In this document: positions 10,260 to 55,011 of the stretch, piece by piece
Numbering within the stretch: the stretch's first letter is position 1
How the letters are laid out: each line of letters starts with the position of its first letter
Source of the DNA: Paenibacillus donghaensis
Lineage (GTDB): Bacteria > Bacillota > Bacilli > Paenibacillales > Paenibacillaceae
Direction: 5' to 3'
Assembly: GCF_002192415.1 (NCBI RefSeq)
Contig: NZ_CP021780.1
Coordinates: 6,138,001 to 6,202,000 of the forward strand
Length of the DNA: 64,000 nt
The notes under the pieces: generated by a model
The model's database searches: none
What the model was told of the DNA's origin: nothing
The model's input: only the letters and a program-made list of their open reading frames with translations
Program-made: the position numbers and the translations under genes

Positions 10260-10672
10260 CCTTACGAACGGTTTAATATTTAGTCCTCGTCTCTTCCTTG
10301 AGCCCTCCCTTCTGCAATAAAACGTTACTACTTAGGCCCAGGCAAGAAATTCTACCGCTAGTTCACGGCTAACCCCATCATGCTGAGAGTTACGGACCCC
10401 AGCGCCCTCCGCTGCTGACGCCACTTTTGCGGGAGTTACGGACTCCATGGCCACTTTCAAAGAATATTAAAAACAGGGCTACCCGAAGGCAGCCCCAATA
10501 AAAATCATGTTGATATTCTCGATGTCAGTTCTCTGACAAAAACTGTTCAGTGACATTATAGTTGGTTCCTGAAAAAGTGAGTAAGATCAAGTGTTTCACG
10601 TTTTTATCCGTATTTTAAGTTACAAAAATATGCTCCCTCTTTTTGCATGTGTTTTAATCCCATTTTTTTGAT
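10260..10672. other. gene-free stretch with short repeats
   Basis: No credible reading frame. It holds two direct copies of GAGTTACGGAC (10387-10397 and 10433-10443), a kind of short dispersed repeat, and the terminator at 10475-10496. Otherwise I see nothing in it. Confidence 0.5.
10475..10496 (-). terminator. terminator downstream of the flavoprotein gene
   Basis: On the minus strand GGGGCTGCC and GGTAGCCCT form a stem around TTCG, followed by TGTTTTT. It lies about 180 bp beyond the stop of the flavoprotein gene, its likely client. Confidence 0.65.
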
Positions 10673-11800: not shown

Positions 11801-11965
11801 TAGAAATACAGTATATGGACGGTTCCACTCTCGAACTTAATTCTTGTATTATTTTTACCTCCTCTTGAAAAAACCTGCCGAAGTTCTTTTCTTAGGCATT
11901 GGCGTTGACTGGAAAATTCTACTTGAATCTATAATAATGAAGTCCCTTATTTATTTATGAGGTGC

Positions 11966-33507: not shown

Positions 33508-33649
33508 AGTATTACCTTTCTTTATAACTAAATTTATGACTATTAATAGATGTATTGAAAATCGTAAGATTTTGAGTTTACCGTTGATAGAGTAACACTG
33601 TTTACAACCAACTTCAATCATTTCACATTAAAGTTGTTCGTGAAATCGA

Positions 33650-34373: not shown

Positions 34374-34404
34374 TGTCGATATTCAATGGGCCTATTCAAC
34401 TTCT

Positions 34405-34490
34405 AGGACCAACTATTTTGTAAAGACACTAACTTTATTGTTTAAGCACCTACATTAATGTCTAGGCACCAACTTTAATGTCACCAGACA
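34405..34490 (-). repeat. Tn7-like right end R1, four contiguous TnsB-type sites
   Basis: Read inward on the minus strand from 34490: tip TGTCTGGT, then GACATTAAAGTTGGTGCC, GACATTAATGTAGGTGC, AACAATAAAGTTAGTGTC, TACAAAATAGTTGGTCC. Tn7 itself has TGT plus five bases and then GACAATAAAGTCTTAAACTG, with four overlapping sites on its right end. Spacing, orientation and core match. The tip at 34490 therefore faces right and the element lies to the left. I found no partner left end or tns genes on that side. Confidence 0.75.
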
Positions 34491-34496
34491 ACTTCC

Positions 34497-34625
34497 TATC
34501 AGGTGATAAAAATCTGTGAAACTAATTTTGTTGATTTTATTAGGATTTTCGGGACATTTGATAAACGCGTAAAAAAGAAAGTGTAGAACCACTAGAATTT
34601 ACTATGTAAAGAAAGTTAGAAACTA
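34497..34625 (+). repeat. Tn7-like left end L3, three spaced sites
   Basis: Sites reading inward on the plus strand: GATAAAAATCTGTGAAACTA (from 34504), GTAAAAAAGAAAGTGTAGAA (from 34569) and GTAAAGAAAGTTAGAAACTA (from 34606). The outermost eight bases are TATCAGGT where TGTNNGGT would be expected. Only six bases separate it from the R1 tip. Confidence 0.55.
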
Positions 34626-34785
34626 ATTTAATTAACTGAACTTTCGCAGACCAGCTTGTTTTCTTTGATAAACGCTCAAAGCTGCTCTTTTATCCAGACT
34701 CTAATTCAGTCAAATCCAGCAATGAATGTTGCCTCAGCTACATCGAAGCTTGTTTGCCAATTAAGTGCTGCGAAGTTCCTTTCAA

Positions 34786-35010
34786 CTATTCATTCTTCTG
34801 CTTTGCAACTTGCATACCGCCGATGATAAGCATGATAATCCCAATTACTGCTAGAATAATCCGAACTAAGAATGGACTCAATGAAAACACCGTTTCACCT
34901 TGCCAGTGTAATCCGAACAACCTTTCATTCAGCCCCACAATCGCCAATAATGGCTTAAGAAACAAACTCAGCGCTAATAATACTATCCCCCAAATAATAT
35001 TGCTATTCAT
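34786..35010 (-). CDS. small membrane protein, two helices
   Basis: 74 residues from MNSNIIWGIVLLALSLFLKP, the ATG chosen for AAGAGG upstream. Two hydrophobic segments (5-25, 45-66) separated by a short loop GLHWQGETVFSLSP, with a charged C-terminus KQKNE. It follows the ABC exporter operon and a 61-residue gene on the same strand, so it may be an accessory or immunity-type protein. No family recognised. Confidence 0.6.
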   Translation of the reverse strand: MNSNIIWGIVLLALSLFLKPLLAIVGLNERLFGLHWQGETVFSLSPFLVRIILAVIGIIMLIIGGMQVAKQKNE

Positions 35011-35065
35011 TGATTCAAAACCTCTTTTCCAATTAAAATAAATGAAGATTATTTCACAATAATAC

Positions 35066-35251
35066 TTACCACTTCGTTTGATTGAGTAACCGATGACAAA
35101 TATGCTCAAGTTTCTCCACATCACGCATCAACACTGACACCATGCAACCTGCTTCCGGTGCAATCGCTTCTTGCATCAACTCTCCCCGTTTACGCATAAT
35201 TCTGACAGCATCAGCACTTTTTTGATCTACCACAATTGTTTCTATGTTCAT
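35066..35251 (-). CDS. hypothetical protein, 61 residues, coupled to the exporter
   Basis: MNIETIVVDQKSADAVRIMRKRGEL... a small soluble protein with a central GCMVSVLMRDVEKLEHIC segment and two Cys. The start lies 1 bp after the stop of the permease gene, with its ribosome binding site (GTAAGG) inside that gene, so translation is coupled. The next gene is the small membrane protein. Function unknown. Confidence 0.6.
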   Translation of the reverse strand: MNIETIVVDQKSADAVRIMRKRGELMQEAIAPEAGCMVSVLMRDVEKLEHICHRLLNQTKW

Positions 35252-35252
35252 A

Positions 35253-36383
35253 TCACGTCCTTACCTTTTCATTCCTTACGATAAAGGAAACAAATATAAG
35301 TAGAGCTGCAAAGCTAAGCATATATATCAGTTGCTGTGAAGCAGCAGCAATACCTTTCCCGGCTATAACATCTCTTCCTGCTTGCAAAAACCATGTCGTC
35401 GGGAAAAAATCTCCGATCTGCTGTGCAAATTTAGGCATAATCTCCCCCGGCCAAAAACACCCCCCCAGCATTAGCATAGGAAAGTAAATTAAAGTCGAGA
35501 GCGAACCAGCCATTAGGCGGGTGTTCGAGAATCTACTGATTGCTACACCTAGAGCGACACAAACAAGGGAGAAAGCCAAGCACACGAGCAACACTTCTTG
35601 TTTCTGCTCAGAGGTCTGCCCGAATGGAAAATCTACTATGCTAGATATAATGCTCAGTAACAATACTGATTGAATAGCAGCGATCACAAAACATGCCAGC
35701 ATGTTTTGTAAGAGATAACTAAATCTTGAAACAGGCGTAACTGCAATACGATCATACACACCTGATAATTTATCCTGCAAGATTATTCTGGTGGAGAATG
35801 TCATGAGAAATATCATACCACTAGCAATAAATCCTAATGATTTTACGGCATTGCTGACGTCTCGTCCTGAACCTGCATACTTAAACGCACTTTCATATGT
35901 AACGTTAAACGTGCTGTTCTTGTAATAGTCCATGCCTTGGTAAAAAATCTTCTCATCACCTCCAGACGCTCTTGCAATTTGTTTTGCAGAAGATACATAG
36001 CTTGACACATACACTTTTACAGGACCAAAGATGTCAGTACCTGCTAAATCACAGATTAATACAGAGACGTCCTCACCATTCAACAAGCTTTCAGTGAAGC
36101 CCTGCTGAAAAAGCAACCCACCGTCTAGTTCTGAATTGATAACCATGCCTTTGACATCATCATTACTCGTCAGATTGATAATCTCGTACTGCCCCTTCAA
36201 CTGTTCTATAAAATCTTGAGTGAACAAGGTATTGTCTTCATCTATTATCCCAACTTTATATTGAACTTCCTGAGATGTCACCACAATCAAAAAAACAATC
36301 AGTAAAATCGGTATAATAAAAATAAACAACAAACTCCAACCCTTCTGGAAAACACTTCTAATACAATTAAGAAATATTGTCAT
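35253..36383 (-). CDS. ABC-2 type permease (LnrN-like)
   Basis: 376 residues from MTIFLNCIRSVFQKGW, preceded by GAGGAGG; the start overlaps the stop of the other permease gene by ATGA. One N-terminal helix, a large extracytoplasmic domain (about 45-180) with KVGIIDEDNTLFTQ, then five helices including LNLLML-type LIYFPMLMLGGCFWPGEIMP, the typical ABC-2 exporter signature. With the adjacent ATPase and permease it should form a drug or lipid exporter of the linearmycin-resistance LnrLMN type. Confidence 0.8.
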   Translation of the reverse strand: MTIFLNCIRSVFQKGWSLLFIFIIPILLIVFLIVVTSQEVQYKVGIIDEDNTLFTQDFIEQLKGQYEIINLTSNDDVKGMVINSELDGGLLFQQGFTESLLNGEDVSVLICDLAGTDIFGPVKVYVSSYVSSAKQIARASGGDEKIFYQGMDYYKNSTFNVTYESAFKYAGSGRDVSNAVKSLGFIASGMIFLMTFSTRIILQDKLSGVYDRIAVTPVSRFSYLLQNMLACFVIAAIQSVLLLSIISSIVDFPFGQTSEQKQEVLLVCLAFSLVCVALGVAISRFSNTRLMAGSLSTLIYFPMLMLGGCFWPGEIMPKFAQQIGDFFPTTWFLQAGRDVIAGKGIAAASQQLIYMLSFAALLIFVSFIVRNEKVRT

Positions 36384-37534
36384 TCTACCGTCCTCCTCGA
36401 AGCAACCAGGCTTACAAGCACTAATCCGACACAAATTAATATCATTACTCCAATATTAATAAGTGCCTGTTCCACTTGATTCCCATATATGACATTGAAA
36501 AGAGCAGTCTTAGCATAATAGCTTGGTGATAGATAGGCAAGTGATCCAAAGTCCACGATTACAAAACCGCCAACGATGAAAGTCCCCCCCAGCGTTATAA
36601 AATTGGATAATGATTGTGCTTTTTCAATGCTACGTGTAATAATAACCAGCATCATCCCAAGTAGTGTAACGAGTATGGATAATATAAACAAAGTAAGAAG
36701 TACAACTATGATATGGTTTCCCCAATCCACACCATATACGTACTTTGTTAACAAAAGTAAGATGACCCCTTGGGAAAATGTCACCAATGACAAACCAAGT
36801 CCTTTGCCAATATATTGTACATACGGTTTCACAGCAGACAAGCGCATTCGATTGCCTAAAGTGCCTAAATAGTCTTCAGACGCCATAAAAATACCGTATT
36901 CTTGCCCGTATAATAATAGCATCAATATCATCGCTATGCTGTAATACCCCATCGCAGTCGTCGCTTGCAAACTTGAATTTGAACTTGTTAAGGATTGTTC
37001 TTTGACATTTTGTTCATTATTCTTCTGCGGCTCGGAACTCATCGCATCGACTTCTGTTTGTCCTGTTATGTTGTAAATAACGCTAGACGTATTCATCAAA
37101 TTGGTTAGACTACTTACAATGTTCTTAACAACCAGCGTAGGTACACCGTATTCTGTTGATAAGTAGACATTGACGACATGGGGGGGATCTCTATCGTCAG
37201 AGAAATTATCAGAAATATAAATAATGGCATCTGCTTTATCCTTATTAATAAGAACTTTGCCATCATCTAATGACTTAACCGGCTTTAGTTCCGCAAGCTG
37301 AGTAACATCATTTGAATGTAAAACAGCATCAAAAATAGCGCCATACCTGCCTGAATCAAGGTTTGCATAAGCTATTGTGACCTTCCCCAATGACCTTTGT
37401 ATATCATATGTACTACCGAATACCGAACCCAAAATGAGAATAATGATAGCATATGTAAGCAGATTAATCAAAATTGCTTTTGGATTCATGATTATCCGTT
37501 TAACCGCATAGAACATCTGGAACAAAATATTCAT
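36380..37534 (-). CDS. ABC-2 type permease (LnrM-like)
   Basis: 384 residues. One N-terminal helix (LINLLTYAIIILILGSVFG), an extracytoplasmic domain to about residue 180, then five or six helices (AMILMLLLYGQEYG, VVLLTLFILSILVTLLGMML, LINIGVMILICVGLVL). It has the same architecture as its neighbour, suggesting a heterodimeric channel. It starts 20 bp after the ATPase gene and overlaps the next permease by four bases. Confidence 0.8.
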   Translation of the reverse strand: MNILFQMFYAVKRIIMNPKAILINLLTYAIIILILGSVFGSTYDIQRSLGKVTIAYANLDSGRYGAIFDAVLHSNDVTQLAELKPVKSLDDGKVLINKDKADAIIYISDNFSDDRDPPHVVNVYLSTEYGVPTLVVKNIVSSLTNLMNTSSVIYNITGQTEVDAMSSEPQKNNEQNVKEQSLTSSNSSLQATTAMGYYSIAMILMLLLYGQEYGIFMASEDYLGTLGNRMRLSAVKPYVQYIGKGLGLSLVTFSQGVILLLLTKYVYGVDWGNHIIVVLLTLFILSILVTLLGMMLVIITRSIEKAQSLSNFITLGGTFIVGGFVIVDFGSLAYLSPSYYAKTALFNVIYGNQVEQALINIGVMILICVGLVLVSLVASRRTVE

Positions 37535-37554
37535 TGCATATCCTCTTTTCCGAA

Positions 37555-38487
37555 TTAATCACGCAACTTTTTACCTGTTAATTGGAGGAAAACCGTTTCC
37601 AAATCCGGTTTTTCTACTGCCATAAATTTTATATTAAAGTGTTGCTTGATTAATTGTTCCAGTATACGAGGAATACAACTGTCATCTTTATCTAGTTTAA
37701 TTTCTAATATCTCTTTGTTAACACTAAAGGACAAAACTCCATCAAAGGACTCGATTACTTTGACAGCTTCTGCTGTATTAGCAGTGAGTTCCAATCTTAG
37801 GCACTGTTCGTGGATATGGTCTGCGATTAATTCGTCAATTGTCCCAAGTGCAATGATCTGACCGAAATCCATGATAGCAACACGGTCACAGATTGCTTCA
37901 ATCTCTTCCATATAGTGAGTCGTATAAATGACCGTCGTGCCTTCTTTGTTCATTATACGGATAGATTCCAAGATATGATTGCGTGATTGCGGATCAACCC
38001 CAACCGTCGGTTCGTCCATAAATAGAACACGCGGTTTATGCACAATCGCACAAGCAATATTGAGCCTTCGCTTCATGCCGCCTGAAAAAGTGCTCACTTT
38101 CGATTTCCGTCTGTCCCACAGACCAGTAAACTCCAGTGCCTTCTTAACCATTTGTGCTAATTCATTTCCTCGCAGACCATACAATCTGCCCCAATAAGTG
38201 ACATTATCTATCGCATTTAACGTTTCAAATATAGCAATTTCTTGAGGAACGTAACCAATTTTACGTTTAATTTCTGTCGCATGTGTTGAAAAGTCTTTGC
38301 CAAGTATCTTCACTGAGCCACTGTTAAAACGTAAAAGTCCTAATATCGTATTCATCAACGTAGACTTCCCAGCCCCATTAGGTCCTAGCAACCCAAATAT
38401 CTCACCTTCACGTATGCTCAGATTAACCCCTTTCAACACATCGAGTTTATTGTATTTTTTGACCACGTCTGAAACTTCGATTATCAT
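37555..38487 (-). CDS. ABC transporter ATPase (LnrL/DrrA-like)
   Basis: 310 residues from MIIEVSDVVKKYNK; GAGGATG precedes the chosen ATG, and an upstream in-frame ATG lacks a ribosome binding site. Motifs: GLLGPNGAGKST Walker A, YVPQEIAIF Q-loop, FSGGMKRRLNIA signature, VLFMDEPTVGVDP Walker B, TTHYMEE switch His. The C-terminal 80 residues form the regulatory domain of antibiotic-export ATPases. First gene of a five-gene operon inside the candidate E3 element, so likely its selectable cargo. Confidence 0.88.
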   Translation of the reverse strand: MIIEVSDVVKKYNKLDVLKGVNLSIREGEIFGLLGPNGAGKSTLMNTILGLLRFNSGSVKILGKDFSTHATEIKRKIGYVPQEIAIFETLNAIDNVTYWGRLYGLRGNELAQMVKKALEFTGLWDRRKSKVSTFSGGMKRRLNIACAIVHKPRVLFMDEPTVGVDPQSRNHILESIRIMNKEGTTVIYTTHYMEEIEAICDRVAIMDFGQIIALGTIDELIADHIHEQCLRLELTANTAEAVKVIESFDGVLSFSVNKEILEIKLDKDDSCIPRILEQLIKQHFNIKFMAVEKPDLETVFLQLTGKKLRD

Positions 38488-38668
38488 ACGCACATCCTCT
38501 ATAATACAGGTCGTCATGTTCTACCCCCACATTAATAGTAAATGAATCAATTTCATAAATCTCAGCCCTTGATATAACAAGCTTCTTCAGGCATAAAAAA
38601 GGAGTACCTCCCCAAATCTCGAATAGGTTAAGCGACTAAGCAAACCAAAGAGACGAGGTGGACTCCCT

Positions 38669-39106
38669 ATGACCTATATTCGACACAAGAGTCTATTTAC
38701 GCTACACAATTTGTTTGAATTGTAACGGAAACATCGATTTGATGTTATATTTTCAACTCTAGATATCTCACCGATCCTGAGTTTAGTCAGAAAAAATTCG
38801 TGTCACGGTGCACCTGTTGAAGTTAATTTTTCAGCAATGGTCTATTCTCTTGTTGCTCGAATTATTATTAAACATTTATTGAAACGACTACGTGAAGACA
38901 TCCTATTTCGCTTGGATTGTGGATTCTCTCTTGCAGAAACGATTCCTTCGGTAGTTTCTTATTCCCGATTAGTAGCAAAGATCAGTCAGAGCAACCGTTC
39001 AGGACAAAAAGCTAAGTTTCATTTTAACTTGGTCACTTTGGTGTACAACTGTACAAAATTAGCTTGTGACCGCATAAACAAACAAGCTCAGTATAATGCA
39101 GCATAA
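38669..39106 (+). pseudogene. DUF772 (IS1182/IS5-type) transposase N-terminal remnant
   Basis: The frame opens MTYIRHKSLFTLHNLFEL, hits TAA, and continues in frame: SPILSLVRKNSCHGAPVEVN, AMVYSLVARIIIKHLLKRLR, ILFRLDCGFSL, which is the helical transposase-associated domain. The catalytic part is missing; the tail ends in an unrelated short sequence. An upstream GGAGT..ACTCC hairpin at 38602-38665 may be the old IS terminus. The stretch 39107-39497 has no gene I can support. Confidence 0.7.
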
Positions 39107-39497
39107 GATTCAAAAAAATGAAGTTGATGAGATTGGAGTAGTCCATTGCTCTTTAAGGCAATGCATTATGAAATTGATTCATCTATGTAGTTCTTTATAT
39201 TTGTAATTTTTAATCCCCATGAACTCGACCCCTCTTTATAATTTAGTGATCTTTCATTGATTAAGAACAAATTGGATGATATATCCACTCCAATTAGTAT
39301 ATCCTCGAATTATTCGTAATGTAAATGTTTATTAGAATTATGGCTGCCTCTTAGCTTAATATCCTTCTCAGTCTACAACAACTCAGCGTTTTCTGAGGCA
39401 CATCAATAGCTTGAAAACTCAGTTTGGTCCTTCTAATTTTTCATTCTAATTTCTCGAATTCGATCCCTAACACTGACTACAATCCCTTCTAAAAAAA

Positions 39498-39535
39498 CAG
39501 CCCCGATGACCTAACAAAGCATCATCGGGACTGTT
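39498..39535. terminator. hairpin just inside right end R3
   Basis: ACAGCCCCGATGA pairs with TCATCGGGACTGT. It shares its core with the hairpin inside R1 (34334-34373) and is followed immediately by the R3 sites. Confidence 0.7.
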
Positions 39536-39603
39536 GTAGAAGTTCCACACTTTTTACTGGTTCTATAGTTTTTTAACTAGTTCCACACTTTTTTATCACC
39601 AAA
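39536..39603 (-). repeat. Tn7-like right end R3, contiguous sites
   Basis: Reading inward on the minus strand: GGTGATAAAAAAGTGTGGAA, then TTAAAAAACTATAGAACC and GTAAAAAGTGTGGAACTT. These match L3 rather than R1 or L2. The expected terminal ACA on the plus strand is missing, because the left end of the next element (TGT at 39604) begins at that point. Confidence 0.6.
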
Positions 39604-39745
39604 TGTTCAAATACATTAAAGTTGTGAAGTTAAGAACCCTTACATATCAAGGGTTTTTCCTGTTTTAATAAAATTACGAATTACATTAAAGTTGTGAAGT
39701 GAGGCTGATTGAAAATTATCAGTGACATTAAAGTTATGAAGTGAA
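39604..39745 (+). repeat. Tn7-like left end L2, three spaced sites
   Basis: Tip TGTTCAAA (39604-39611) is followed by TACATTAAAGTTGTGAAGT (39612), the same at 39682, and GACATTAAAGTTATGAAGTG (39724). Tip-to-first-site spacing of eight bases and three spaced sites are as in Tn7-L. A small hairpin with T5 (39635-39657) lies between sites. It marks the left boundary of the tnsABC-tniQ element. Confidence 0.78.
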
Positions 39746-43303: not shown

Positions 43304-44872
43304 CTACTCCTTACATGTCACGTCCTTCAACTTTTCTTTTGTTAAGGGCAATTTGTCAAGTTTGGTTCTAATCATCGTTAAACACTTTAACCTTCTTCCA
43401 ATTTCATTACGGGATACTCGTATATTTCCTGATTTTTTAATTTCAATAGCAACTCGACTAACTTCTTCAGCTAAACATTCATCTCTTTTTTTCCAATCAA
43501 CCCGCACTCGTATGTTAGTAACTATTTTTTTATTACTATGTACTTTAAATGAATATACTTTATGTGGTTTCGAATCTTGTTGAGCTTTCCCTTTCGCACC
43601 TAGTTTTAGTAAGTTTGTTTGTCTTTTGACTGTACCAGCATCAACACCAAGCTGCCTCGCTCTCTCACGCAAGCCAAGATCTTTATTGTCGTTTAATTCG
43701 ATTAATTTTTCTATCCATGTTGGTCCAAAGTTCTTAATCCTTCCTATTCGATAAAGATCTTCATTTTTTTTATCTGGACCTCGCCTTGAGTAAACAAAAC
43801 CACAATTACAACTAAAGGTCCCTACTGAATTCCCTGATTCATAATCTCTTGTTATATTTACAGTCGGAATTGTAAATCCCCCGAAGTGTTCAGATCCCTT
43901 ATTCAGACAAGGCCAGGGGCCTTCACCAAATGGTAATACAGCACTGACGTACTTCTTTTCTAATATCTCTTTTACTTCTATCCCCAAATAAAGTTGAAGC
44001 AAGATATGCCTTAAAGGATGTACACCATGCCTTGGCTTTCGGAGCATTTTATGCAACCAAGTATGCTGACTGTTCTTGTCTATGGAGCAGCGCTGCTCTT
44101 TAAGATAGATTGCTCCAAAAAAGGATTCGAATTTAGGTAGCAAATCTTGAAACCTTACATGTCCCTTGGCAGTGAGCAATCCCATTTGACTCAGCCTCCC
44201 ATAGTACACTTTTCTTATCGCTACTTCATTTATAGCTTGATAATTCATCTTTAGTAAAGCTTCCGATTGTTGTGCGATTAATAACTCTAACGCGTTCTCA
44301 CTGTACTCCAGTTGATGCGAATTACTATCTAAGACAGACTCAAGCATAACAAACTCATGCTTATTTCGTCGTTGTGCGTAAGAAACTTTTGAATTATGCA
44401 GATAACAATTATGAACAGAGCATATGTTGAATCCTGTAATCTGATGATATCTATGCCAATACGCTGCACCATATTTACTACGATCTTCTTCGATACACGC
44501 AGAGCAATATCTCAGATAAGATAATTGCTTTACTTTATTTGCAGCTAACCCCATTTTCATATAAATGGACTGCCCATCCCCAAAAATCATGTCCCGTGTA
44601 ACATTATCATACTGTTCAGGCGTAATGTAAGGCCGGTAGTATGGAAGAAGCGTGTGTCCATTAATTAGTACGCTAAGCGGAATCGCATTTCCAGGGATGA
44701 GCGAGTGAAGATCATTCAGGTGTCCAGGAAAGTCAGTCACCGCACAGACCGTCTTTTTACCAAACAAATCCCTCATTGTAAATTTAGTGTTTTCGTTACC
44801 AGACCTAGCATGATATCGAGCTAAAACGCTATATAACAACTCGTCTGGAAATGGTGGTGGAAAATAAATCAT
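43304..44872 (-). CDS. tniQ: TniQ/TnsD-family targeting protein (second, intact copy)
   Basis: 522 residues. N-terminal TniQ domain: FPDELLYSVLARYHARSGN, PYYRPYITPEQY, and the zinc-binding set YCSACIEEDRSKYG..WHRYHQITGFNICSVHNCYL. A second cysteine group (CNCGFVYSRRGPD, residues 350-362) and a helix-turn-helix-like LGLRERARQLGVDAGTVKRQ follow, so it resembles TnsD with a C-terminal DNA-reading part. It should recognise the attachment site and recruit TnsC. It is the only undamaged targeting protein here, since the neighbouring copy is broken. Confidence 0.85.
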   Translation of the reverse strand: MIYFPPPFPDELLYSVLARYHARSGNENTKFTMRDLFGKKTVCAVTDFPGHLNDLHSLIPGNAIPLSVLINGHTLLPYYRPYITPEQYDNVTRDMIFGDGQSIYMKMGLAANKVKQLSYLRYCSACIEEDRSKYGAAYWHRYHQITGFNICSVHNCYLHNSKVSYAQRRNKHEFVMLESVLDSNSHQLEYSENALELLIAQQSEALLKMNYQAINEVAIRKVYYGRLSQMGLLTAKGHVRFQDLLPKFESFFGAIYLKEQRCSIDKNSQHTWLHKMLRKPRHGVHPLRHILLQLYLGIEVKEILEKKYVSAVLPFGEGPWPCLNKGSEHFGGFTIPTVNITRDYESGNSVGTFSCNCGFVYSRRGPDKKNEDLYRIGRIKNFGPTWIEKLIELNDNKDLGLRERARQLGVDAGTVKRQTNLLKLGAKGKAQQDSKPHKVYSFKVHSNKKIVTNIRVRVDWKKRDECLAEEVSRVAIEIKKSGNIRVSRNEIGRRLKCLTMIRTKLDKLPLTKEKLKDVTCKE

Positions 44873-46313
44873 TGGTTGCCTCTTCTCATTAAAATGCTAC
44901 TAATAGTATTTATCTGCTTCCTTCACTGCCCAATTCAGTACTTCAGGAGAACATTTTTTATATACCTTCGAAATAGTTTGAAGCCGTTTTAAGGTTAACC
45001 TTCTGTATCTGGTTTTCAAGAATTTCTCAACTACATACGGAAATATCCTTACTGCATAGTCATCAATGGATTCAATATTTGAGTTCAGAAGTTCTACTGT
45101 ACGAGGCATCTGATTTTGAAATTTATAATAACGTGCCTTAAGAAAATCAGGTACGATATTAAAGAAGGAACTTAAACATATTTGTCTTTTAGGCGGATCG
45201 TTGCTCACCGTTTCTACAGCTTTCTTCATGATTTCAAACATTTCTTCATCAATTTTTTTATAATTAATGCTATTCGGCAATGGCTCTCTTGATGGTAGGC
45301 GATCCTCCAACCATAATCTATCGTTTTTCATTAACCAATCGTATCTATGCATATTGAATTTTCGAATGTCCTGTCTAGAAGCACCTGCTCCTAATGTCTC
45401 TAAGGCTTCCCCAAGCTACTTCTACATTCCTCAATTTTTGGGAGCTCGGTTGCAGCCGCTTGATGGTACCCAAGTTCTAAAACAGTAGAAGGATCGACTT
45501 CCCTCGGATATGCTTTACTCCGCTTTCTTCCCCTGTGCGGCATAAGGTACTTCCTAATTGTTGTCCTATTGGATAATAACTTATTTGCTATTTCATCAAA
45601 TGTCAGTCCATTCTCATAAAAAAGAACTGCCTGTTCAATGAATAAAGAGCCCATTGTATCTATAGAATATTGTGTTTCATCTTCAGTTTTAGGAATTCCT
45701 CGTCTAGTATAGATCATTCCACAGTATGGACAACTGAATCGACCAGTAACCCATTCATGTGCTTTTCTGTATATCGTAGAAATAATCCTATTATTGTATT
45801 GTGGACAGATTGTATTGACACACAGCCATGGTCCATTCCCAAATGGGATTGGGATTGAGTAATTTTCATCTTTATAAAACCAATCTTTTACATTATATGC
45901 AAAAAACCTCATAATCAACAAGTATAAGATGAGGTTATCCTTGAGATTATTTTTTTGAAGAAAGTGCACCATTTCTTTTTCACTCATCAGATAAGCTGGG
46001 TCGAGACCGAATGATTTTAAATACTCAACACCAAAATACTCTGTCATATCAGATAAAAGTCTTTTTTTATAGATAAAATCGCCCCGAAAATGAATATAGC
46101 CTTTGGCACCGGCATACGAAATTAATTTAATAAAGCTTGTGTCTAAGTTAGCGCTTGTTTGTTTCATTAATATTGCTAAATCATCGATTAATCGTTGGTT
46201 TTCATCAGTTACTTTATTAGAGCAGTGATCAACATTAGCTAAAATCTCATGTCCGTTAGGGCAGATTGAATCGATAAGCATTTGTTCACAGGTTTCGTTA
46301 GTTACCTCAATTC

Positions 46314-48024
46314 CCCCGAAATTATAACCATGCGGGATCATGCAAACAAAGAACCCTTATACACCAAGGGAATTGATCGGAAGTTCACTTGTACAATCCC
46401 CATAACATGGTTATAATTATAACCATAAATCCAAATTATGGGGTAATTTTATATGGCCTACCGCGTGCATCATTACAATAAGAAGAACGGAATCACTTAT
46501 GTCTACGAAGCTGTTTCAGTATGGGATAAGGAAAAAAAGACTTCCACAAATAAGCAAGTCTGTATCGGGAAGCTGGATTCGGAAACGGGTGAATTGATTC
46601 CTTCCAAAAGGTTGAATTCCTCCCCTTCCACATTACATAACTCTAAGGCCACCGCAACGTCTCTAGTGGCTGGGCCCTCTCTCCTCCTGGATTCGATTAC
46701 TCAAGAGCTTGGCATTGAAAAACTGCTGAAGAAGTGTTTTCCGAACGACCATCAACAGGTGCTCTCCGTGGTCTATTTCCTGGTTCAACGGGGCCAGGCT
46801 TTAAGCCACTGCGAAAGTTGGTGTAAAGGCCACCTGCATCCATACTCCAAAGGACTGACCAGTCAGGCGATTAGTAAGCTACTTGCTTCTCAAACCGAAG
46901 ATGCCAGACAAACGTTTTTCAAGCAATGGAGTCGCGTCATCACGGAAAAAGAATGCCTCTGTTATGACATCACTTCCGTTTCCTCGTATTCCGAACAGAA
47001 TGAGTATGTGAAGTATGGATACAACCGGGACAAAGAAAAATTGCCCCAGATCAATATGGCGATGCTGTTTGGCCAACAAAGCCGACTGCCTGTCTATTAC
47101 AAGCGTCTGCCTGGAAACATTACAGATGTGAGCACGTTGTCTAACTTTTTGAAGACGATGAACTTCTTGGGCAACGAAACACTTCATCTTGTACTGGATA
47201 AAGGATTTTACAGTAACGCCAATGTAGACGAGTTGTTTGCTGCGCACCATAAGTTTACGATGGGGGTTTCGATCCACCTCAAATGGGTGCAAGAAATTGT
47301 GGATGAGTTCCAGCCCGATATGCTGGATGTAGAGAACTACCGGAAGATCGGTGATGATGTCCTTTACGTGAGAACCAAACTGTACAAATGGGGGACTCAA
47401 GGAAAACGTTCGTATGTTCATGTTTATCATAACGCTCGTGCTGCCGCAGAGGACAGGGACGATTTTCATGAAAAGTTGCTTGAATACAAGGCAGAACTGG
47501 AGTCGGGACACAGAGTCAAAGAACACGAGTCGTTTTATCAGCGATATTTTATCATAAAGAATACCCCGGTGAGGGGGGTCAAAGTAAGATTCAATCCAGA
47601 AGCCGTGCAGGGCTATCGCAAGCGCTATGCCGGTTTTTTCATCCTGTTTACCACTGGCATTAAAAACCCCGCAACGGCACTGGATAGCTATCGAAATAAG
47701 GACGTCGTGGAAAACTGTTTTGATGATCTCAAGAACCAACTGGATATGAAACGGCTACGGGTTCATCATTCCTCGACCATGGATGGCCGGATATTTCTGC
47801 AATTTATAGCGCTCATCTATATCAGTGCGATCCGCAATACGATCCAAAAACATCCCTCGCTGGCGCATTTTACCGTGAAGGAACTGCTTGAGGAAATGGA
47901 GACGCTCTCCAAGATCACCTATTCGGGACGATATGGATCTATCTTTACCGAATCTACCAAGATGCATAAAGAGATCGCACGCATTTTTAATATAGACCTT
48001 AAAACCTAGTTATAATTTGCGGGG
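46314..48024 (+). mobile_element. IS1634-like insertion sequence in tniQ
   Basis: 1711 bp. Imperfect terminal inverted repeats CCCCGAAATTATAAC and CCCCGCAAATTATAAC, flanked by the 5-bp direct repeat AATTC (46309-46313 and 48025-48029). It contains a single transposase gene in the opposite orientation to the tns operon, so it should block expression of the distal part. Confidence 0.88.
46453..48009 (+). CDS. IS1634-family DDE transposase
   Basis: 518 residues, full length. Catalytic candidates: CYDITSVSSYS (first Asp), LVLDKGFYSNANV (second Asp) and VVENCFDDLKNQLDM (Glu), with the Y-(2)-R-(3)-E-like spacing of IS4-superfamily enzymes. The N-terminal ITYVYEAVSVWDKEKKTS is typical of IS1634. 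The frame is intact, so the element may still be active. Confidence 0.9.
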   Translation: MAYRVHHYNKKNGITYVYEAVSVWDKEKKTSTNKQVCIGKLDSETGELIPSKRLNSSPSTLHNSKATATSLVAGPSLLLDSITQELGIEKLLKKCFPNDHQQVLSVVYFLVQRGQALSHCESWCKGHLHPYSKGLTSQAISKLLASQTEDARQTFFKQWSRVITEKECLCYDITSVSSYSEQNEYVKYGYNRDKEKLPQINMAMLFGQQSRLPVYYKRLPGNITDVSTLSNFLKTMNFLGNETLHLVLDKGFYSNANVDELFAAHHKFTMGVSIHLKWVQEIVDEFQPDMLDVENYRKIGDDVLYVRTKLYKWGTQGKRSYVHVYHNARAAAEDRDDFHEKLLEYKAELESGHRVKEHESFYQRYFIIKNTPVRGVKVRFNPEAVQGYRKRYAGFFILFTTGIKNPATALDSYRNKDVVENCFDDLKNQLDMKRLRVHHSSTMDGRIFLQFIALIYISAIRNTIQKHPSLAHFTVKELLEEMETLSKITYSGRYGSIFTESTKMHKEIARIFNIDLKT

Positions 48025-48565
48025 AATTCAGGTTAGTTAAGGAGATATTGCACACTGGGCATGCATCAATCAACGTTATGTTATGTTTAAGACATTTATG
48101 CAAAAAAGAAAATTGATGAATACGGTGTAAATAGACAATTCCAATATTTTCGAGATCCTCTTTCATACAAGCAGAACAATATCGTGCAGAAGAATGAAGA
48201 AGTGACTGAATATGCCTAATAAGCAGACTCCTACTGTTCTTTTCGTAAACGCTTGAATACATGACATCCCAAAATTTCGACTGAATATCGATAGAAATAA
48301 ACGGTCGCAAAAATGGATAGTAGGTGTGATTCTCAATTATTCTTTCCGCAAATGCGGGTGTAAGCCCAAACTCTTTTTCAATTCTAGATAAATTGAGAGG
48401 AATTAAGGCAGCTTTTCTCGTGCCATATTCACCAAACATTTCGTACTTTGCTTTAGTAAAGACAAGTGGCGAGCGAAGAAAATACCTAAAAACAATACTT
48501 CTAAAATCTTCGTCAGGATATGTTGAAGGAAAAAAAACAAAACTCCCCATATCTCTATCTATTGT

Positions 48566-50281
48566 TTATACAAACTCACAGAATTCCCCAACTAATCCTA
48601 CATTCCTAAGTGCCTCATCAACACTCAAGTTATCTATTTTCCCTTGGGCTACAATATATCGAATATCATTTTCATCTAATTCAAGGCTTTCACTCTTTTT
48701 ATTTCTCCTTTTCTTTATAATTTCAACAACTTCTGAAATAGGTTCATTTGGGCTAGCAGTTTTACCTTCAAAAACAAGTCTAGCCATTTCTGTATACAAC
48801 ACTTCCATATCATGGCCGGTTCCCCGATTATGAAGTTCGACCTGTTCAGCATAAGTTAATGCCACTTCTTCAGCACAACCCATTTTCATTGCGAATGTAA
48901 GAAGTTGCTCGATTAAAATCCTTCTATTATGCTGCAACAGAATAAGTTTATGCTCCTCAGAGAGGTGTCCATCTATAGTAATACGATGCTGTGCTTCCTT
49001 CAGATATTCTTTAAAAGTGATCCAATCTGGCTTTAAATCCTCATATTCAGAAGGATCAATATCTTCGCCTCCTCTTATACGTTCGAATATTGGCTGAACA
49101 AGCCTAAACGTTTTGTTGGCTACTTTTTCGATCAATTCCGCAGTAATAACTTCATCATCTTCATATATAATTGCCCGGCATTGAACATGCATGAATAATT
49201 TCACAGCAAAGTCGGGTATCCCAAGTGTGTGATAATACATTACTGCTTTAAGCTCCTCAGTTAATATTGTGTGCTTATTCGTGTATTGAAGTTCCCAGAG
49301 TCCTTTTAAAAAGATATCCCATTGTAAATCATCCTTCATTCGGTCAGTAATGTTTTCCCCATATCCGTCCGGAATTCCTCGCCTTGAATTAGCAAGAGAA
49401 GTCTTGAATAAGTAAAGTGCTTTGAACGTACCAATCATCACAATGGGTATACCAAGAGAATTAGTAAGCTCAGTAATAAAATCGATCATTTTTTCTTCGC
49501 CACCAGAGTGCCCTTTGTGTACTCGTTGTACTTCATCGATAAATAAGCCACCAAGACTAATATTTCCGGCTACCTTTGCCATTCTTTTTGCTAGAACTTC
49601 AGCACGACCATCTTTTTCTGCTAAATCTTCATAATAGCTGGTTCCTAACAACTGATCCACAGCCCAATAAAAATTTCGGCATAACGCCCCCACCGATTTA
49701 TTGCTGGGGCACTCGATATGAAGCCACACAACTTGTTTTACTGGAAAGGGTTGTCCTTCGTACTCCACATGATGGATAACTTGCGGAAAAAGTCTTAACA
49801 ATCTTTCATAAGATTTTGTCTTCCCCATACCGCTAAGTCCAATATCTGCAAATGTTTGAGCCGTTTGAATATTTCCAGCTAGATTCTTACCATCTTCATC
49901 TGTTCCATGTGATAATATGTTATCCCATCCTATTGCAATTTCTCTTTGGTAAATTGAACTTAATGGATTTCGAGATTGGTAACCAATCTTTAACATATTA
50001 TATATGTTTCTATATCTCTCGAAATGAGTTGCTAATGGCTTCCAATATTTTGGTTTGATTTGCTGAATAAGTTCTAATCGATCTTCCATATCCAACTGAT
50101 TGATGTCTCCAGAAAAGCGAGGGACTGAATCTAACATGTGATACAATTGATCTTGAGCTAATCTAGGCGGCAAAGCTTCTATAAACGGATTTCCTTGATA
50201 TTCTTCAACAATCTGTGGATAGTACGTCGCTTTAATTTGACTACCTTTTAGATATATATACCGTCCTTGTTCTTTTATCAT
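48566..50281 (-). CDS. tnsC: TnsC-type AAA+ ATPase
   Basis: 571 residues. Walker A GLSGMGKTKSYERLL near residue 145, Walker B GLFIDEVQRVHKG near 240, sensor-like IVMIGTFKALYLF. TnsC forms ATP-bound filaments on target DNA and connects TniQ/TnsD to TnsAB. Flanking extensions are longer than in CRISPR-associated TnsC and closer to Tn7 TnsC (555 residues). Starts 5 bp after the tnsB stop. Confidence 0.92.
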   Translation of the reverse strand: MIKEQGRYIYLKGSQIKATYYPQIVEEYQGNPFIEALPPRLAQDQLYHMLDSVPRFSGDINQLDMEDRLELIQQIKPKYWKPLATHFERYRNIYNMLKIGYQSRNPLSSIYQREIAIGWDNILSHGTDEDGKNLAGNIQTAQTFADIGLSGMGKTKSYERLLRLFPQVIHHVEYEGQPFPVKQVVWLHIECPSNKSVGALCRNFYWAVDQLLGTSYYEDLAEKDGRAEVLAKRMAKVAGNISLGGLFIDEVQRVHKGHSGGEEKMIDFITELTNSLGIPIVMIGTFKALYLFKTSLANSRRGIPDGYGENITDRMKDDLQWDIFLKGLWELQYTNKHTILTEELKAVMYYHTLGIPDFAVKLFMHVQCRAIIYEDDEVITAELIEKVANKTFRLVQPIFERIRGGEDIDPSEYEDLKPDWITFKEYLKEAQHRITIDGHLSEEHKLILLQHNRRILIEQLLTFAMKMGCAEEVALTYAEQVELHNRGTGHDMEVLYTEMARLVFEGKTASPNEPISEVVEIIKKRRNKKSESLELDENDIRYIVAQGKIDNLSVDEALRNVGLVGEFCEFV

Positions 50282-50286
50282 TAATC

Positions 50287-52415
50287 TTAAGACCCCCTTT
50301 CTAGATTCTTGCCTAAAAGAAACAGCTCCATTTTATCCAGCTTGCGTTTTTCAATCACTGGAGTCTGGTTATCTACTGTAGCAGTTGCAGCTATAACCCG
50401 TGCCTGAGATTTAGTCGCAGTCCAAGCTTTTGCACTTGATTCAATTCTTCTCTCAAGTTTTCGAACACTCCGCTTATTCTTGAATTTAGCTGATTTGGGC
50501 CTCCCCTTTTGTGCTTCTTTTAATTTTGCCACTTCAACTTGTGTTAAGTTTTTCGCAACTGTATCTAACTCTGCTTCAATTTGATTTCTATTATTCTTAG
50601 CCTTTTTTAATTGCTTACTCTTGAAACTCATTATTTCTTTTACATCTTCAAAATGAAGGCCTTCGTATTCCTTGAATTTTTCAGTAAGAAAAAGCTGCTC
50701 CTCTTTCCCATTTGCGAGCTTAATAAACACACTGCTACAATTTCTCGGGTCATAACTAACTATTACTTCTCTTCTACCTTCGATCATTTCGTCCTCGAAC
50801 CATCCCTCATCTTCACCACGTTGGCAGGCATAACTCATTTTTCTTAACACCACACCTCCTCGAGTAACTTTGCATGTTTCTTTAGGAAGAAGTGCGTATC
50901 GGATCAAGCTACGTGGTTGCTCCTGTAGGAGATTATATTGCATTCCCCAATTCCACATAGATAAGGGGGTGAGTTCCACATTATCCACAAACATTTCCTT
51001 TGAAACTAAAAAATCTTCACTTAATGCTTTTCGGTTATACTCCAGGACAAACAGAATCACTAATTTTGTATAAGCCTCAAATGTATAGGCAGCCTTCTCT
51101 TCTGGATTTTTGTCTCCTCTAACCCTATGCTCTTTATGAATTCCCCCTGGATCAAGTTCTCTCATGCGCATACAAAAACTTTTGAATTGCTGTTCTATAT
51201 ACGGCTTTAAGTCTGCACGGTACGAAGGAGGATTACCTACCCGTATGTTAAGAAGCGCCAGATTGTTAGAGTTTTTACTTTTCATTTCTCCTCGGTCACC
51301 CACAATATATCTTGGTAAATGCTTAGCTGGCCAGTCTTCTTTATTAATAGTTATCCCGAACTGTGCACAATATGAGACTTTATCAGTAGAAGCATTCTCA
51401 AGCGCTACCATTTCCTCTTCCCAGGAAGGAGTCTTACATATGTGCATCCCAGTAATCAGTCTATTTATTACATCTTTAACAAAATAAACATGAGGTCTTC
51501 CTATAATCGTTTTATGATCAAGGGATACTAAAATATCATCAGCAGGTGTAGAGTCGGTTTCGTAGAGTGCTCCAGGTCCTTGGAGGTCGCCATTTGCAGA
51601 TTTAAGGAGGGATCTTGCCAACATTTCAGCCTTTCGTTGACCAAACTTAGCAGCAACTTTCTTCTTTTTGTTATATTCTTTGTCATACCAATATAAAAAC
51701 TGTCTCAACGAGGGTCCGCCAACCATTGGAATAAGCTCTCCAAATTTTCTATAATATCCATCTGGGTATTCTTCTTCACACATATGTTTGTGTGTGGCCC
51801 TTAAATTCATTCCTTGATCAGTATGGAATTTCTTAATTGCCTTTTTAAATTTCTTTTTGTCCTCATCGGTTATAATAAAGCTTTTCCCATTCTCAGGTTT
51901 TGGGCCTGTATTTTCACTTCGATTTCGTCCCCCGTAGTCGGAACTCCTACGTCAAAATAATCATTTAAAAGACCATTTTCATTCTTCCCATAAAACCAAT
52001 ACCTTTTTAATAATTGATAAACCCAATTTACTTGTTTATTACATTGTTCAGCCGCCCCACTAACTAGCTTTCCTCTTTTTCCAGGTATATATATGTCCGG
52101 CTCTTTAAATACAATTCCCTCAATAATTGCGAATTTTTCATCTCTCCTTTGAGAGTACTTTTTGAGATATTCATCGCTAGGAGCGATTAGGCGTAAATCA
52201 GGATCAATAATTTCAACCTGCGCACTACCACTCTCCAGGTAAAGTAATAAATCTTTATAGTCTCGGAAATAGGGAAAAGGGACTTTCTTTTTATTATCAA
52301 TGTTAATGAGAACAACCTGCGAATGATCAGGAGCGATCCACAATACACGTTCAAATGTCCTCTTCTTATTAGGACCTACATCTAGAAAACAGATAACAGA
52401 ATTTTGAAAGATCAT
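50287..52415 (-). pseudogene. tnsB: TnsB-type DDE transposase with a one-base frameshift
   Basis: About 709 codons in total, as in Tn7 TnsB. The first 165 codons (MIFQNSVICFLDVGPNKKRT...) carry the DNA-binding part up to about 51905. The frame then drops by one in an A-run (GTGAAAATACAGG) and resumes as TGPKPENGKSFIITDED in the next frame, leading to the catalytic domain: ETDSTPADD (first Asp), IVGDRGEMKS (second Asp) and PYIEQQFKSF (Glu), the last two 34 residues apart. A fifth A would restore the protein, so it is either a recent mutation or a homopolymer sequencing error. No canonical slippery heptamer is present. Confidence 0.88.
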
Positions 52416-52428
52416 TTCCTCACCACCA

Positions 52429-53232
52429 TCATTTTAATGATTTATCTATAACCAAAGGGGCACTTTCACGTATCAATGCATTCATATCTGTTACCCAGCG
52501 TTTATTGGCAAGCATATGTTTAACCATAAACATTGATGTTCCGGGTTCAAGACCAATACTTTGATCGCACTTTAAACAATTTTTGCTTATGGATAAACCG
52601 CGATCATTCTTTTTCAATAATTCAAATATAGGTTCAGCAATAATATTGACCATCTCATTATCCATGCCCGGACGTACATCTGGTCGCTTTGCATCGTGTA
52701 ACCAATCAATATTCTTTATGAAATTAATAGGTCTTCCCACATCAAATATCACTTTCCACTGAATACCGATTTCTTTATAGTACCGCCTTTCAATTTCAAA
52801 TAATTCAAGCGTCCTTTTAGTCAAATTATTTATTGGTTTAAAAGTTCTGGCTTCTTCCATTGTTCTATTCTGACCATTTGGAACGGTTAACATAAAATCA
52901 GTAGTCTGAACTACATCTTCTCCTTTTAGATTCGCATGAATTATATTTAATTTCTTCGCTATTCGTTGTGTTTCTTCAATTGGAAGGGGATATTGTTCTC
53001 TGATATCTATAACTTGACCTGCCCAATCCTGTACAAGCAGATATTGATACTCATATTTGGACAACGTATGATGTATTCGATTTGAATGCCAGCCTGGAGT
53101 ACGGGTTAACCATCCCTCTGACGCCACTTTATTATCATTTGCTTGAATGAAAGGAATGTAGTCTGCTCCTCTTCCTTGCCCTCTTCCATCTTTAAGTCGA
53201 TTTGCATGTGTTATATTTATAGTGTTTGTCAT
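52429..53232 (-). CDS. tnsA: TnsA-type endonuclease
   Basis: 267 residues, like Tn7 TnsA (273). It cuts the 5' ends of the transposon, giving cut-and-paste movement together with TnsB. The restriction-enzyme-like core shows SKYEYQYLLVQDW (Glu), DVVQTTDFMLTV (Asp) and RTFKPINNLTKR (Lys region), then ELERRYYKEIGIQWKVIFD-like residues of the C-terminal TnsC-binding half. GGGAGGAG precedes the ATG. First gene of tnsA-B-C-tniQ; its start should be close to the right end or to right-side cargo. Confidence 0.9.
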   Translation of the reverse strand: MTNTINITHANRLKDGRGQGRGADYIPFIQANDNKVASEGWLTRTPGWHSNRIHHTLSKYEYQYLLVQDWAGQVIDIREQYPLPIEETQRIAKKLNIIHANLKGEDVVQTTDFMLTVPNGQNRTMEEARTFKPINNLTKRTLELFEIERRYYKEIGIQWKVIFDVGRPINFIKNIDWLHDAKRPDVRPGMDNEMVNIIAEPIFELLKKNDRGLSISKNCLKCDQSIGLEPGTSMFMVKHMLANKRWVTDMNALIRESAPLVIDKSLK

Positions 53233-53637: not shown

Positions 53638-55011
53638 TTAAGCTGCCATCTGTAGCTGGGCCAGACGTACCGGCCCTAACACGTCGTTAGCGTCGTACGG
53701 AATTCGCTTCGTACCGAGTGTATGCAGGACGCGTATAAGTTTTCCGCATAACGCCACAAGGGATTGCTTTTTCTTCAATGGATTCTGACTTCGTGTCGTA
53801 AAGTACTGGTGCAGCGCCTTGAACTCCGCGTTCTTCGCTACCATGGGCATGACCGCCCGGAACAGCAGGGCTCTTAGCCTTGCACGTCCACGTTTGGTAA
53901 TGCTGGACTTGCCTTTTTTCTTTCCTGAACTGTTTTCTTTGAGATTCAGTCCGGCCAGCCGTATGATCTGCTGTCCGTGCTCGTAACTGCTTAGGTCCCC
54001 TACTTCTGCAAGGAACCCCGCCAAGGTGACTACGGCCACACCCGGCACAGTGAGCATCTCCTTCGTTCCCGGAATTTGTGCAAGTAGACGTTCCACCTCG
54101 ACCAGAATCTCTTCGAGTTGTCTGGCGAACATTTCGTACTGCTCCAGAAGCGTTTTAATCTCTATTTTGGCTGCGGGAAGTCCTTCGGTAAGCCCGATGG
54201 ATCTTCTTGCAGTTTCGACCAGTTGCTCCGCTCGTTTCGTCCCTACGGCGCGCTTCACGTCTTTCTTCCATCGCTTCACAATGGCCTCTGTACCGAGCGC
54301 TACGATCTCTTCTGGCGTCGGAAACTCGCTTAACGTAATAAGGGAGGCTTTCCCCTCCCAGTCTTTAAAAACCTTTGTATACTCCGGGAAAAATCGATCC
54401 TGCCAGTTCTGCATTCGTCTTTGTACCTGCCCGAGGTTCACCATGATTTTCTCGCGAAGATTCATGAGAATCCGCAGATCTGCATAGAGGTTCGTCGGCA
54501 GTTTCGGTTCGCTGTACTTCCCGTTACGCACTAAATCGGCAATGACTTTTGCATCCTTATAGTCGTTTTTCGTCGGTGAGTTGTCTTCCAGTTCTTTGCT
54601 TTTGTGTACATGATGCGGATTGACGATGACCAAAGGAATCCCTTGCTGTCCCAAGTATTCGGCCAGATTAAACCAGTAGTGTCCGGTAGGCTCAATGCCA
54701 AAGAGGACGTCAGTCTTGGCATGCTCCTGCTGAAGCTCCTTCATCCACTGAACCAGTTGTTCCAGCCCGGTACGGGTATTGGAGAACACACAGTCCTTTC
54801 CCAGTTCAATGCCCCGAAAGTCGATGGCACGGGCCACGTGGGTTTCTTTAGCAATGTCTGCGCCTACGACAAGGGTCTTGTCAGAAATTCGTGTAATCCG
54901 TTGATTCTGTTTCTTCGATTGTTTATACTTCATGTTGAGTGCCTCCTGCGCTGGAATTTGTTCTTTGGACGGAACGTTTCCCAGTATACAGTTGGCGCTT
55001 TTTTCTTTCAA
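53638..55011 (-). CDS. IS110-family DEDD transposase
   Basis: 457 residues. N-terminal RuvC-like half with LVVGADIAKETHVARAID (first Asp), DVLFGIEPTGHYW (Glu) and SPTKNDYKDAKVIADLV (two Asp). C-terminal half with LTVPGVAVVTLAGFLAEVGD and GLNLKENSSGKKKGKSSITK, containing the catalytic Ser region. These enzymes act as RNA-guided recombinases. The element separates tnsA from the CBASS side. The first 30 codons before MKYKQSKKQN may be untranslated. Confidence 0.9.
   Translation of the reverse strand: MKEKSANCILGNVPSKEQIPAQEALNMKYKQSKKQNQRITRISDKTLVVGADIAKETHVARAIDFRGIELGKDCVFSNTRTGLEQLVQWMKELQQEHAKTDVLFGIEPTGHYWFNLAEYLGQQGIPLVIVNPHHVHKSKELEDNSPTKNDYKDAKVIADLVRNGKYSEPKLPTNLYADLRILMNLREKIMVNLGQVQRRMQNWQDRFFPEYTKVFKDWEGKASLITLSEFPTPEEIVALGTEAIVKRWKKDVKRAVGTKRAEQLVETARRSIGLTEGLPAAKIEIKTLLEQYEMFARQLEEILVEVERLLAQIPGTKEMLTVPGVAVVTLAGFLAEVGDLSSYEHGQQIIRLAGLNLKENSSGKKKGKSSITKRGRARLRALLFRAVMPMVAKNAEFKALHQYFTTRSQNPLKKKQSLVALCGKLIRVLHTLGTKRIPYDANDVLGPVRLAQLQMAA

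Follow-up and report, generated by a model that had tools for sequence, protein, structure and literature searches.

Why should four transposon ends of the Tn7 type lie within 5.3 kb of one another (positions 34405..39745) in the chromosome of Paenibacillus donghaensis, and do they record repeated insertion at a single attachment site? The window, the whole stretch of 64,000 nucleotides analysed here, spans positions 6138001-6202000 of the 8.54-Mb contig NZ_CP021780.1. An earlier note, made from these letters alone, had placed a right end to 34490 (R1), a left end from 34497 (L3), a right end to 39603 (R3) and a left end from 39604 (L2), and had proposed an island of tandem elements built up beside one attachment site, with the newest rightmost. 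All four ends are found at those positions, borne out by both the sequence and scoring matrices, and the search that the note had called for recovers their partners: R2 and the attachment gene, glmS, lie right of the window, and L1 lies at 10544. The ends chain in the order R0, L1..R1, L3..R3, L2..R2, glmS, and three end types (T1, T2 and T3) account for the six mapped ends L1, R1, L3, R3, L2 and R2. The chain is longer than described and the finding was understated; the remnant of a fourth right end, R0, stands left of L1, elements 1 and 3 are without tns genes, and the tips of element 3 are altered. On the sequence evidence, three Tn7-like elements were very probably stacked successively at one glmS site, the newest nearest glmS, and the order of insertion would be T1, then T3, then T2. 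The features concerned are listed in window coordinates, except where genome positions are given.

10470..10538 (about): R0, an older right-end remnant facing right, read from the sequence and adjoining L1 across the 5 bp GTTTT
10544..10571, plus strand: L1, outer left-end site of element 1, TGTTCAGTGACATTATAGTTGGTTCCTG, the top T1 match at 36.1 bits
10544..34490: element 1, type T1, 24 kb, with paired ends of 36.1 and 35.9 bits
34332..34374: terminator-like hairpin inside R1, an inverted repeat that is 94% complementary
34404..34490, minus strand: R1, the right end that closes element 1, made up of four sites of roughly 20 bp in a contiguous run; its tip is TGTCTGGTGACATTAAAG
34492..34496: left copy of the duplication of element 3, CTTCC; the right copy lies beside glmS and reads GGAAG in the glmS orientation
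34497..34627, plus strand: L3, left end of element 3, from a 27.1-bit match and an alignment with five relatives
34497..39603: element 3, type T3, 5.1 kb, with ends from other-genome matrices
39537..39603, minus strand: R3, right end of element 3, with three contiguous sites (39537-39593), 28.0 bits
39604..39744, plus strand: L2, left end of element 2, with three spaced sites at 39612, 39682 and 39724, 26.4 bits
39604..64000 and onward to genome position 6213054: element 2, type T2, about 35.4 kb, bounded by L2 and R2
genome about 6212966-6213054: R2, right end of element 2, with contiguous sites at 6212966-6213045 and its tip at window coordinate 75054
genome about 6213086-6213088, minus strand: stop codon of glmS, the attachment gene, right of the window

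The asymmetry that the earlier note had described is present, the right ends carrying contiguous sites and a hairpin and the left ends three spaced sites. The sites of R1 reach back to about 34404 from its outermost bases, ACA at 34488-34490; R3 has a hairpin, read from the sequence, at about 39500-39536, and its last base is 39603. L3 starts six bases past R1, with sites near 34508, 34574 and 34608, the last of these a weak one, picked up by a matrix trained on it among other sites and seen when relatives are aligned. Element 1 has a matching pair of ends of one type, with no inner sites recognised with confidence in L1; elements 2 and 3 have asymmetric ends, and for T3 the same kind of right end precedes tnsABCD in genome G089. 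The remnant R0 comprises a tip, TGTCAGAG, and a terminator-like hairpin, GGGCTGCC..GGTAGCCC, which is also present behind right ends in G026, G028, G032 and G111; no binding sites are recognisable within it. Element 2 further has its right tip at a fixed distance from glmS, 31 bp past the stop codon (29-32 bp in five other T2 genomes), and carries tnsA, tnsB, tnsC and a TniQ/TnsD gene, with tnsB split into two open reading frames (ORFs). TnsB binding and movement of the DNA are the putative role of these sites. L2-type left ends are also found in G113, G018, G062, G093 and G008.

These assignments were scored with 28-bp outer-tip matrices built only from right tips beside glmS in other genomes (12 of T1, 5 of T2 and 13 of T3), the sorting of those tips into types having used earlier matrices that included sites of this genome. 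Across 204 kb around the window, the best matches are L1 (36.1 bits) and R1 (35.9) for T1, R2 (34.1) and L2 (26.4) for T2, and R3 (28.0) and L3 (27.1) for T3; when the 204 kb were Markov-shuffled 10 times, the maxima were 16.2, 18.6 and 17.3, respectively. Every TnsA or TniQ match in the genome falls inside element 2, and the tns genes of types T1, T2, T3 and T5, sought in the 204 kb, do not occur outside 43-53.4 kb of the window; by both searches elements 1 and 3 have no tns genes of their own.

Genomes lacking one or more elements, with which the earlier note had wished the chain compared, are available among relatives of the genus. The glmS flank is uninterrupted in G100 and G112, which thus provide the empty site. 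G113 has a T2 element with tns genes at glmS, with ATTAA on both sides, and G086 has a T3 element there, flanked by GTTTT and ATTTT. The flank beyond L2 of G113 aligns to G100 from base 28 past the glmS stop codon (insertion point 32), and that beyond L3 of G086 aligns from base 20 (insertion point 24); both alignments begin exactly 5 bp before the insertion point and run for at least 2 kb at 89-92% identity. Two other genomes have a single element with an exact duplication: G095, a T5 element with tns genes between copies of GTTAT, and G076, a 6493-bp T3 element between copies of CTCGT that has no tns matches, in a genome with no TnsA match. In G087 a T1 right end follows glmS and the native flank of G100 and G112 resumes 5.4 kb from glmS, probably another short insertion.

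Duplications were compared over 18 element or junction pairs. An automatic search for the nearest left end found one for 12 of the 50 typed right tips; in the T2 rows and in G108 it had picked internal sites, which were replaced by outer tips read by eye, and six pairs read by eye (G008, G018, G093, G060, and elements 1 and 3 here) were added to reach 18. The two copies are identical in 8 of the 18 pairs and agree at four or more of five positions in 10, compared with 4 and 26, respectively, of 306 cross pairs; the best of 100,000 permutations gave 7 exact matches. For T2, five of six pairs match, namely all five relatives examined, and the non-matching sixth is this genome. A single duplication common to all junctions was considered and rejected. 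Element 3 has GGAAG both beside glmS and between L3 and R1, with element 2 lying between R3 and the right-hand copy; one additional base precedes the R1 tip, which is what two tips placed at 23 and 24 bp would give.

Chains also occur in relatives, joining unlike types in the same orientation. That of G062 reads, head to tail, glmS, R2, tnsABC with two tnsD-like genes, L2, R5, tnsABC with one tnsD-like gene, L5, the reading frames having been checked for the first (T2) element only. T2 stands on a T1 end in G093 and on an end of another type in G008, T1 on a T3 end in G108 (CCCTG / CCTG, short by one base), and T3 on a T5 end in G060, where the duplication matches at 4 of 5 positions; in G018, R2 beside glmS is on a different contig from the one that bears R1, a remnant R3 and L2. 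T2 sits inside the resident tip by 3 bp in G062, 5 bp in G008, 6 bp in G093 and 7 bp in G018, with exact 5-bp duplications, and the resident has lost no tip bases in G062 and G008, one in G093 and two in G018. In this genome R2 stands 8 bp into a residual tip, TGTCCAGT, the duplication is mismatched (CCAGT / TTTGG), and R3 is without its outermost two bases, the sequence of L2 beginning there instead. Together with R2 adjoining glmS, the empty sites, duplications and chains of the relatives support the earlier proposal of repeated insertion at one site.

How far each family inserts from glmS was surveyed across 100 genomes of the genus. The 3' end of glmS was found in 99 of them; of the 98 flanks that could be oriented 97 were used, among them that of this genome, and those left out are G023 (its glmS end reads N), G029 (glmS at a contig end) and G025 (no match). 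A type-free test for tandem repeats (a lag of 19-21 bp with at least 12 of 15 positions matching, within 15-155 bp after glmS) detects repeats of about 20 bp in 49 of the 97 genomes, but in just 11 of 970 shuffles and 6 of 913 distant windows. By this test or the type matrices 69 of the 97 are end-positive. The matrices of this typing were trained partly on the same genomes; the type-free test and the matrices from other-genome tips are more independent. One T3 row (G024) is spurious, with a negative distance, and, though omitted from the nearest-left-end search, still contributes one to the T3 rows (18), to the end-positive genomes (69) and to those of them without any TnsA match (46); typed rows with implausible distances (G072, G093, G097, G098, G068, G011 and G103) also remain in the counts. 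Right tips start 23-25 bp after glmS in 12 of 13 T1 rows, 23-26 bp in 16 of 18 T3 rows, 24-25 bp in all six T4 rows, 24-26 bp in all seven T5 rows and 22-25 bp in six of nine T6 rows. T2 tips start at 29, 30, 31, 31 and 32 bp in five of eight rows, and that of G093 is a sixth, at 30 bp, if its outer tip is read. For four end types, at least one genome has a tnsABCD set next to glmS, and TnsB proteins of types T1, T2, T3 and T5 share 29-43% identity between types; TnsC, used as a query for related loci, found nothing. We note that in G071 and G018 unlike right ends adjoin without left ends between them in the first 500 bp past glmS (R4-R3 and R2-R4-R5), as if only the right end remained.

A simple geometry could account for both the order and the damage. 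A TnsD-like protein would read the end of glmS and direct insertion at a fixed distance, which would place each newcomer between glmS and the older element, and a T2 newcomer, at 29-32 bp, would land inside the tip of a resident placed at 22-26 bp. Because five bases are copied at insertion, the resident tip is left whole in G062 and G008, whereas that of G093 is short by one base and that of G018 by two; when T2 lands more than 5 bp inside the tip, the duplication would no longer cover it and the resident would lose its outermost bases. Tn7-type transposases need their terminal bases, and a clipped tip would for that reason be expected to trap the resident. The junctions suggest that the family with the longer reach lands inside resident tips and would sometimes clip them. 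Tentatively, and as something possible rather than probable, we propose that in Paenibacillus rival Tn7-like families use glmS as a stacking dock, where many cassettes are transposase-less and have only their ends in common and where a reach longer by 6-8 bp clips and locks older cargo.

A number of observations weigh against successive stacking and the proposed trapping. The comparison genomes include no strain of the same species. Exact duplications are missing in 10 of the 18 pairs; in some of these the left end taken as partner, being the nearest, could be the wrong one. Of the 50 typed right tips, 38 have no left end of their own type in the sequence searched, mostly 20 kb. L2 and R2 are on separate contigs in G018 and G008, so that their pairing is inferred; two T2-matrix rows, G067 (25 bp) and G097 (52 bp), are off the T2 range and ambiguous in reading; and the T3 machinery of G089 is tied to T3 through its right end alone. 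The whole resident tips of G062 and G008 indicate that trapping is not universal. In this genome, the displaced tip TGTCCAGT beside glmS is unlike the remaining tip of R3, and the duplication match of element 3 is valid only if that tip once belonged to R3. Element 1 is flanked by the unlike sequences GAAGT and GTTTT and element 2 has the mismatch given above, and with two of the three duplications unmatched the local history includes later change or recombination. Finally, the R1-R3-L2 order is shared with G018, so that a portion of the chain may have arrived as one unit, by inheritance or exchange. These last points are what would be expected of a mosaic island, in which chains assembled beforehand had passed from strain to strain through homologous recombination in glmS and shared ends and their order is no record of insertion in this lineage; the identity to G018 is 82% in DNA across the R3-L2 junction and 85-86% in two genes behind L2. 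We consider this unlikely, since element 3 retains matching GGAAG on both sides and the exact insertion signatures at chain junctions of G018, G008, G062 and G093 indicate that chains do form by insertion.

Stacking by insertion also fits the repeats themselves better than a reading of them as regulatory or repetitive extragenic palindromic (REP)-like sequences near glmS. The earlier note had held that its proposal would be refuted if the repeats were common in strains without tns genes or failed to coincide with insertion boundaries; common they are, being frequent beside glmS even where there is no TnsA match (46 of the 69 end-positive genomes), but they do coincide with insertion boundaries, and their commonness in TnsA-less genomes therefore does not refute insertion. 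As the repeats form left-right pairs that enclose tns genes, border 5-bp duplications and are absent from the intact site in G100 and G112, we regard a regulatory or REP-like nature as extremely improbable. TnsA was found in 30 of the 100 genomes (27 above the cut-off), and, since Tn7-like elements without TnsA exist (PMC8649781), a missing TnsA is by itself no proof of a missing transposase. Elements 1 and 3 were either moved by tns genes elsewhere or have lost their own. That they are decayed full elements with deleted tns genes is quite possible, if somewhat short of an even chance: both tips of element 3 are altered (L3 begins with TAT rather than TGT, and the outermost bases of R3 are gone), and in G089, another T3 genome, a right end of this kind is followed by tns genes. 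Movement without genes of their own is favoured by the absence of tns matches from both elements and by the G076 element, which has an exact target duplication yet is devoid of tns matches, in a genome with no TnsA match. It is also favoured by the T3 elements of this genome, G010, G086 and G076, which have no detected DNA in common except at the left end and within 460 bp of the right end, and whose cargo is unrelated. Their left-end blocks are 126-132 bp at 78-83% identity (G010 with G076, this genome and G086; G086 with this genome), and the right-end blocks are 305 bp at 80% (G076-G010), 231 bp at 72% (G076-G086) and 65 bp at 80% (G010-G086); element 3 shares DNA with the elements of G010 and G086 at the left end only, and none was detected between it and that of G076. 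Having no tns genes of its own, element 3 is a transposase-less relative of Tn7-like transposons and not a full member. The cargo of the G010 element includes a separate IS3-like transposase.

The tns genes of the chain all belong to element 2, and are given here with the cargo of elements 2 and 3.

35253..38517, minus strand: element 3 cargo (Pfam), two ABC-2 permeases (35253-36434 and 36380-37534) and an ABC ATPase (37555-38517)
43304..44872, minus strand: TnsD-like protein with TniQ and TnsD domains, an open 522-aa ORF, from Pfam and the Escherichia coli TnsD structure 8glu (E 5e-26)
44900..48550, minus strand: second tnsD-like gene, apparently broken, from Pfam, NCBIfam and comparison with relatives, with TniQ at 47999-48550 and the remainder in ORFs 45400-46341 and 44900-45352
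46453-48009: IS1634-family transposase ORF interrupting the second tnsD-like gene
48566..50281, minus strand: TnsC-like ATPase, 571 aa (Pfam TniB/AAA)
50287..52415, minus strand: tnsB, apparently broken into ORFs of 181 and 507 aa, from comparison with the ORFs of relatives
52429..53232, minus strand: TnsA, the sole TnsA match in the genome
55926..60902, minus strand: element 2 cargo, a cyclic-oligonucleotide-based antiphage signalling system (CBASS) with JAB, E1-E2, cyclase and SAVED endonuclease effector genes (Pfam, PADLOC)

The two tnsB ORFs match E. coli TnsB (7pik) at residues 20-148 and 203-672, and in seven relatives of four types tnsB is one ORF of 711-733 aa, for which reason a two-protein TnsB as a natural design was rejected. 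In G062 and G093 the second tnsD-like gene is one ORF, 635-638 aa long. Given the altered tips of element 3, the split tnsB and the interrupted tnsD-like gene, the chain is probably immobile now.

The elements resemble Tn7 of E. coli and the Tn7-like transposons that target glmS in their TGT..ACA tips, in the contiguous sites of the right end and spaced sites of the left, in their TnsA, TnsB, TnsC and TnsD proteins, in the orientation of the right end toward glmS, and in the 5-bp duplication (of element 3 here and of elements in relatives). They differ from Tn7 in that several dissimilar families occupy one site in one genus, in that the T2 family inserts 6-8 bp farther from glmS, and in that tnsB and one tnsD-like gene look broken here. 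Tn7 genomic islands at attTn7, in which two or more elements or remnants occupy the glmS site, were reportedly described by Parks and Peters in 2007; compared with those, the present chain is resolved to single ends, duplications, an insertion order and insertions inside a resident tip. Stacking at glmS is accordingly not claimed as new, its mechanism, Tn7-like insertion beside glmS, being known, and the difference in reach and its effect on residents are possibly the new part. No description of the present arrangement of tandem or non-autonomous Tn7-like elements at glmS was found in the open-access literature, a search outside of which the classic Tn7-island papers fell.

The ends alone yield the insertion order of a tandem island and reveal transposase-less cassettes that searches beginning with tnsB would miss. 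In Benler et al. 2021 (PMC8649781), Tn7-like transposons carrying CBASS and other defence cargo have their ends delimited by arrays of transposase sites, and the survey scanned outward from tnsB; on that description, elements without tnsB such as 1 and 3 would escape delimitation. Should the geometric rule be true, the distance at which each family inserts from glmS would decide whether an older element stays mobile, and a ratchet based on reach could let one transposon fix the genes of another in the chromosome. The rule bears on how one safe site is shared by dissimilar Tn7 families, which are not expected to recognise each other's target-immunity signals.

Smaller insertions are found within these elements and away from glmS. 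IS110-type and DDE transposase genes (Pfam) lie inside element 2 at 53638-55011 and 62625-63836, and a 2.9-kb piece with one 422-aa ORF and T5 right and left ends is nested just inside R2 (genome 6209960-6212840, window coordinates about 71960-74840). Pairs of T5 or T6 ends lie 150-400 bp from glmS within other elements in G015, G012, G018, G027 and G017, and G031 has a T5 right end inside another element at that distance. In G096 a T3-like element (10365-14058 of the G096 locus) with a right tip that looks truncated interrupts a gene reading like a MATE transporter, away from glmS. The native flanking genes of the island were sought in relatives; just two match, some 14-18 kb to the left of the window, so that the left border of the island is not fixed.

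The cargo of element 1 includes a two-component pair, an SLH-domain ORF, a PadR regulator and an ABC-F protein (Pfam, NCBIfam). Its largest gene is a single 4768-aa ORF with SLH domains (15066-29372), for which an identity as a nonribosomal peptide synthetase was dropped, as Pfam gives SLH domains and one weak match. The ABC-F protein, beside R1 (31768-33621), has homologues 87-89% identical within 20 kb of glmS in G012, G011, G036 and G009, and another at the same identity on the R1-bearing contig of G018. The ABC exporter of element 3 has a DrrA-like NCBIfam match below the family cut-off. On the L3 side of that element a 74-aa ORF (34786-35010) looks like a small membrane protein, and the 289-bp block that holds it is found, whole or in part, at 86-98% identity at scattered places in at least 18 other genomes. 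Left of element 1 is a type A chloramphenicol acetyltransferase gene (3933-4592), which passes the NCBIfam cut-off.

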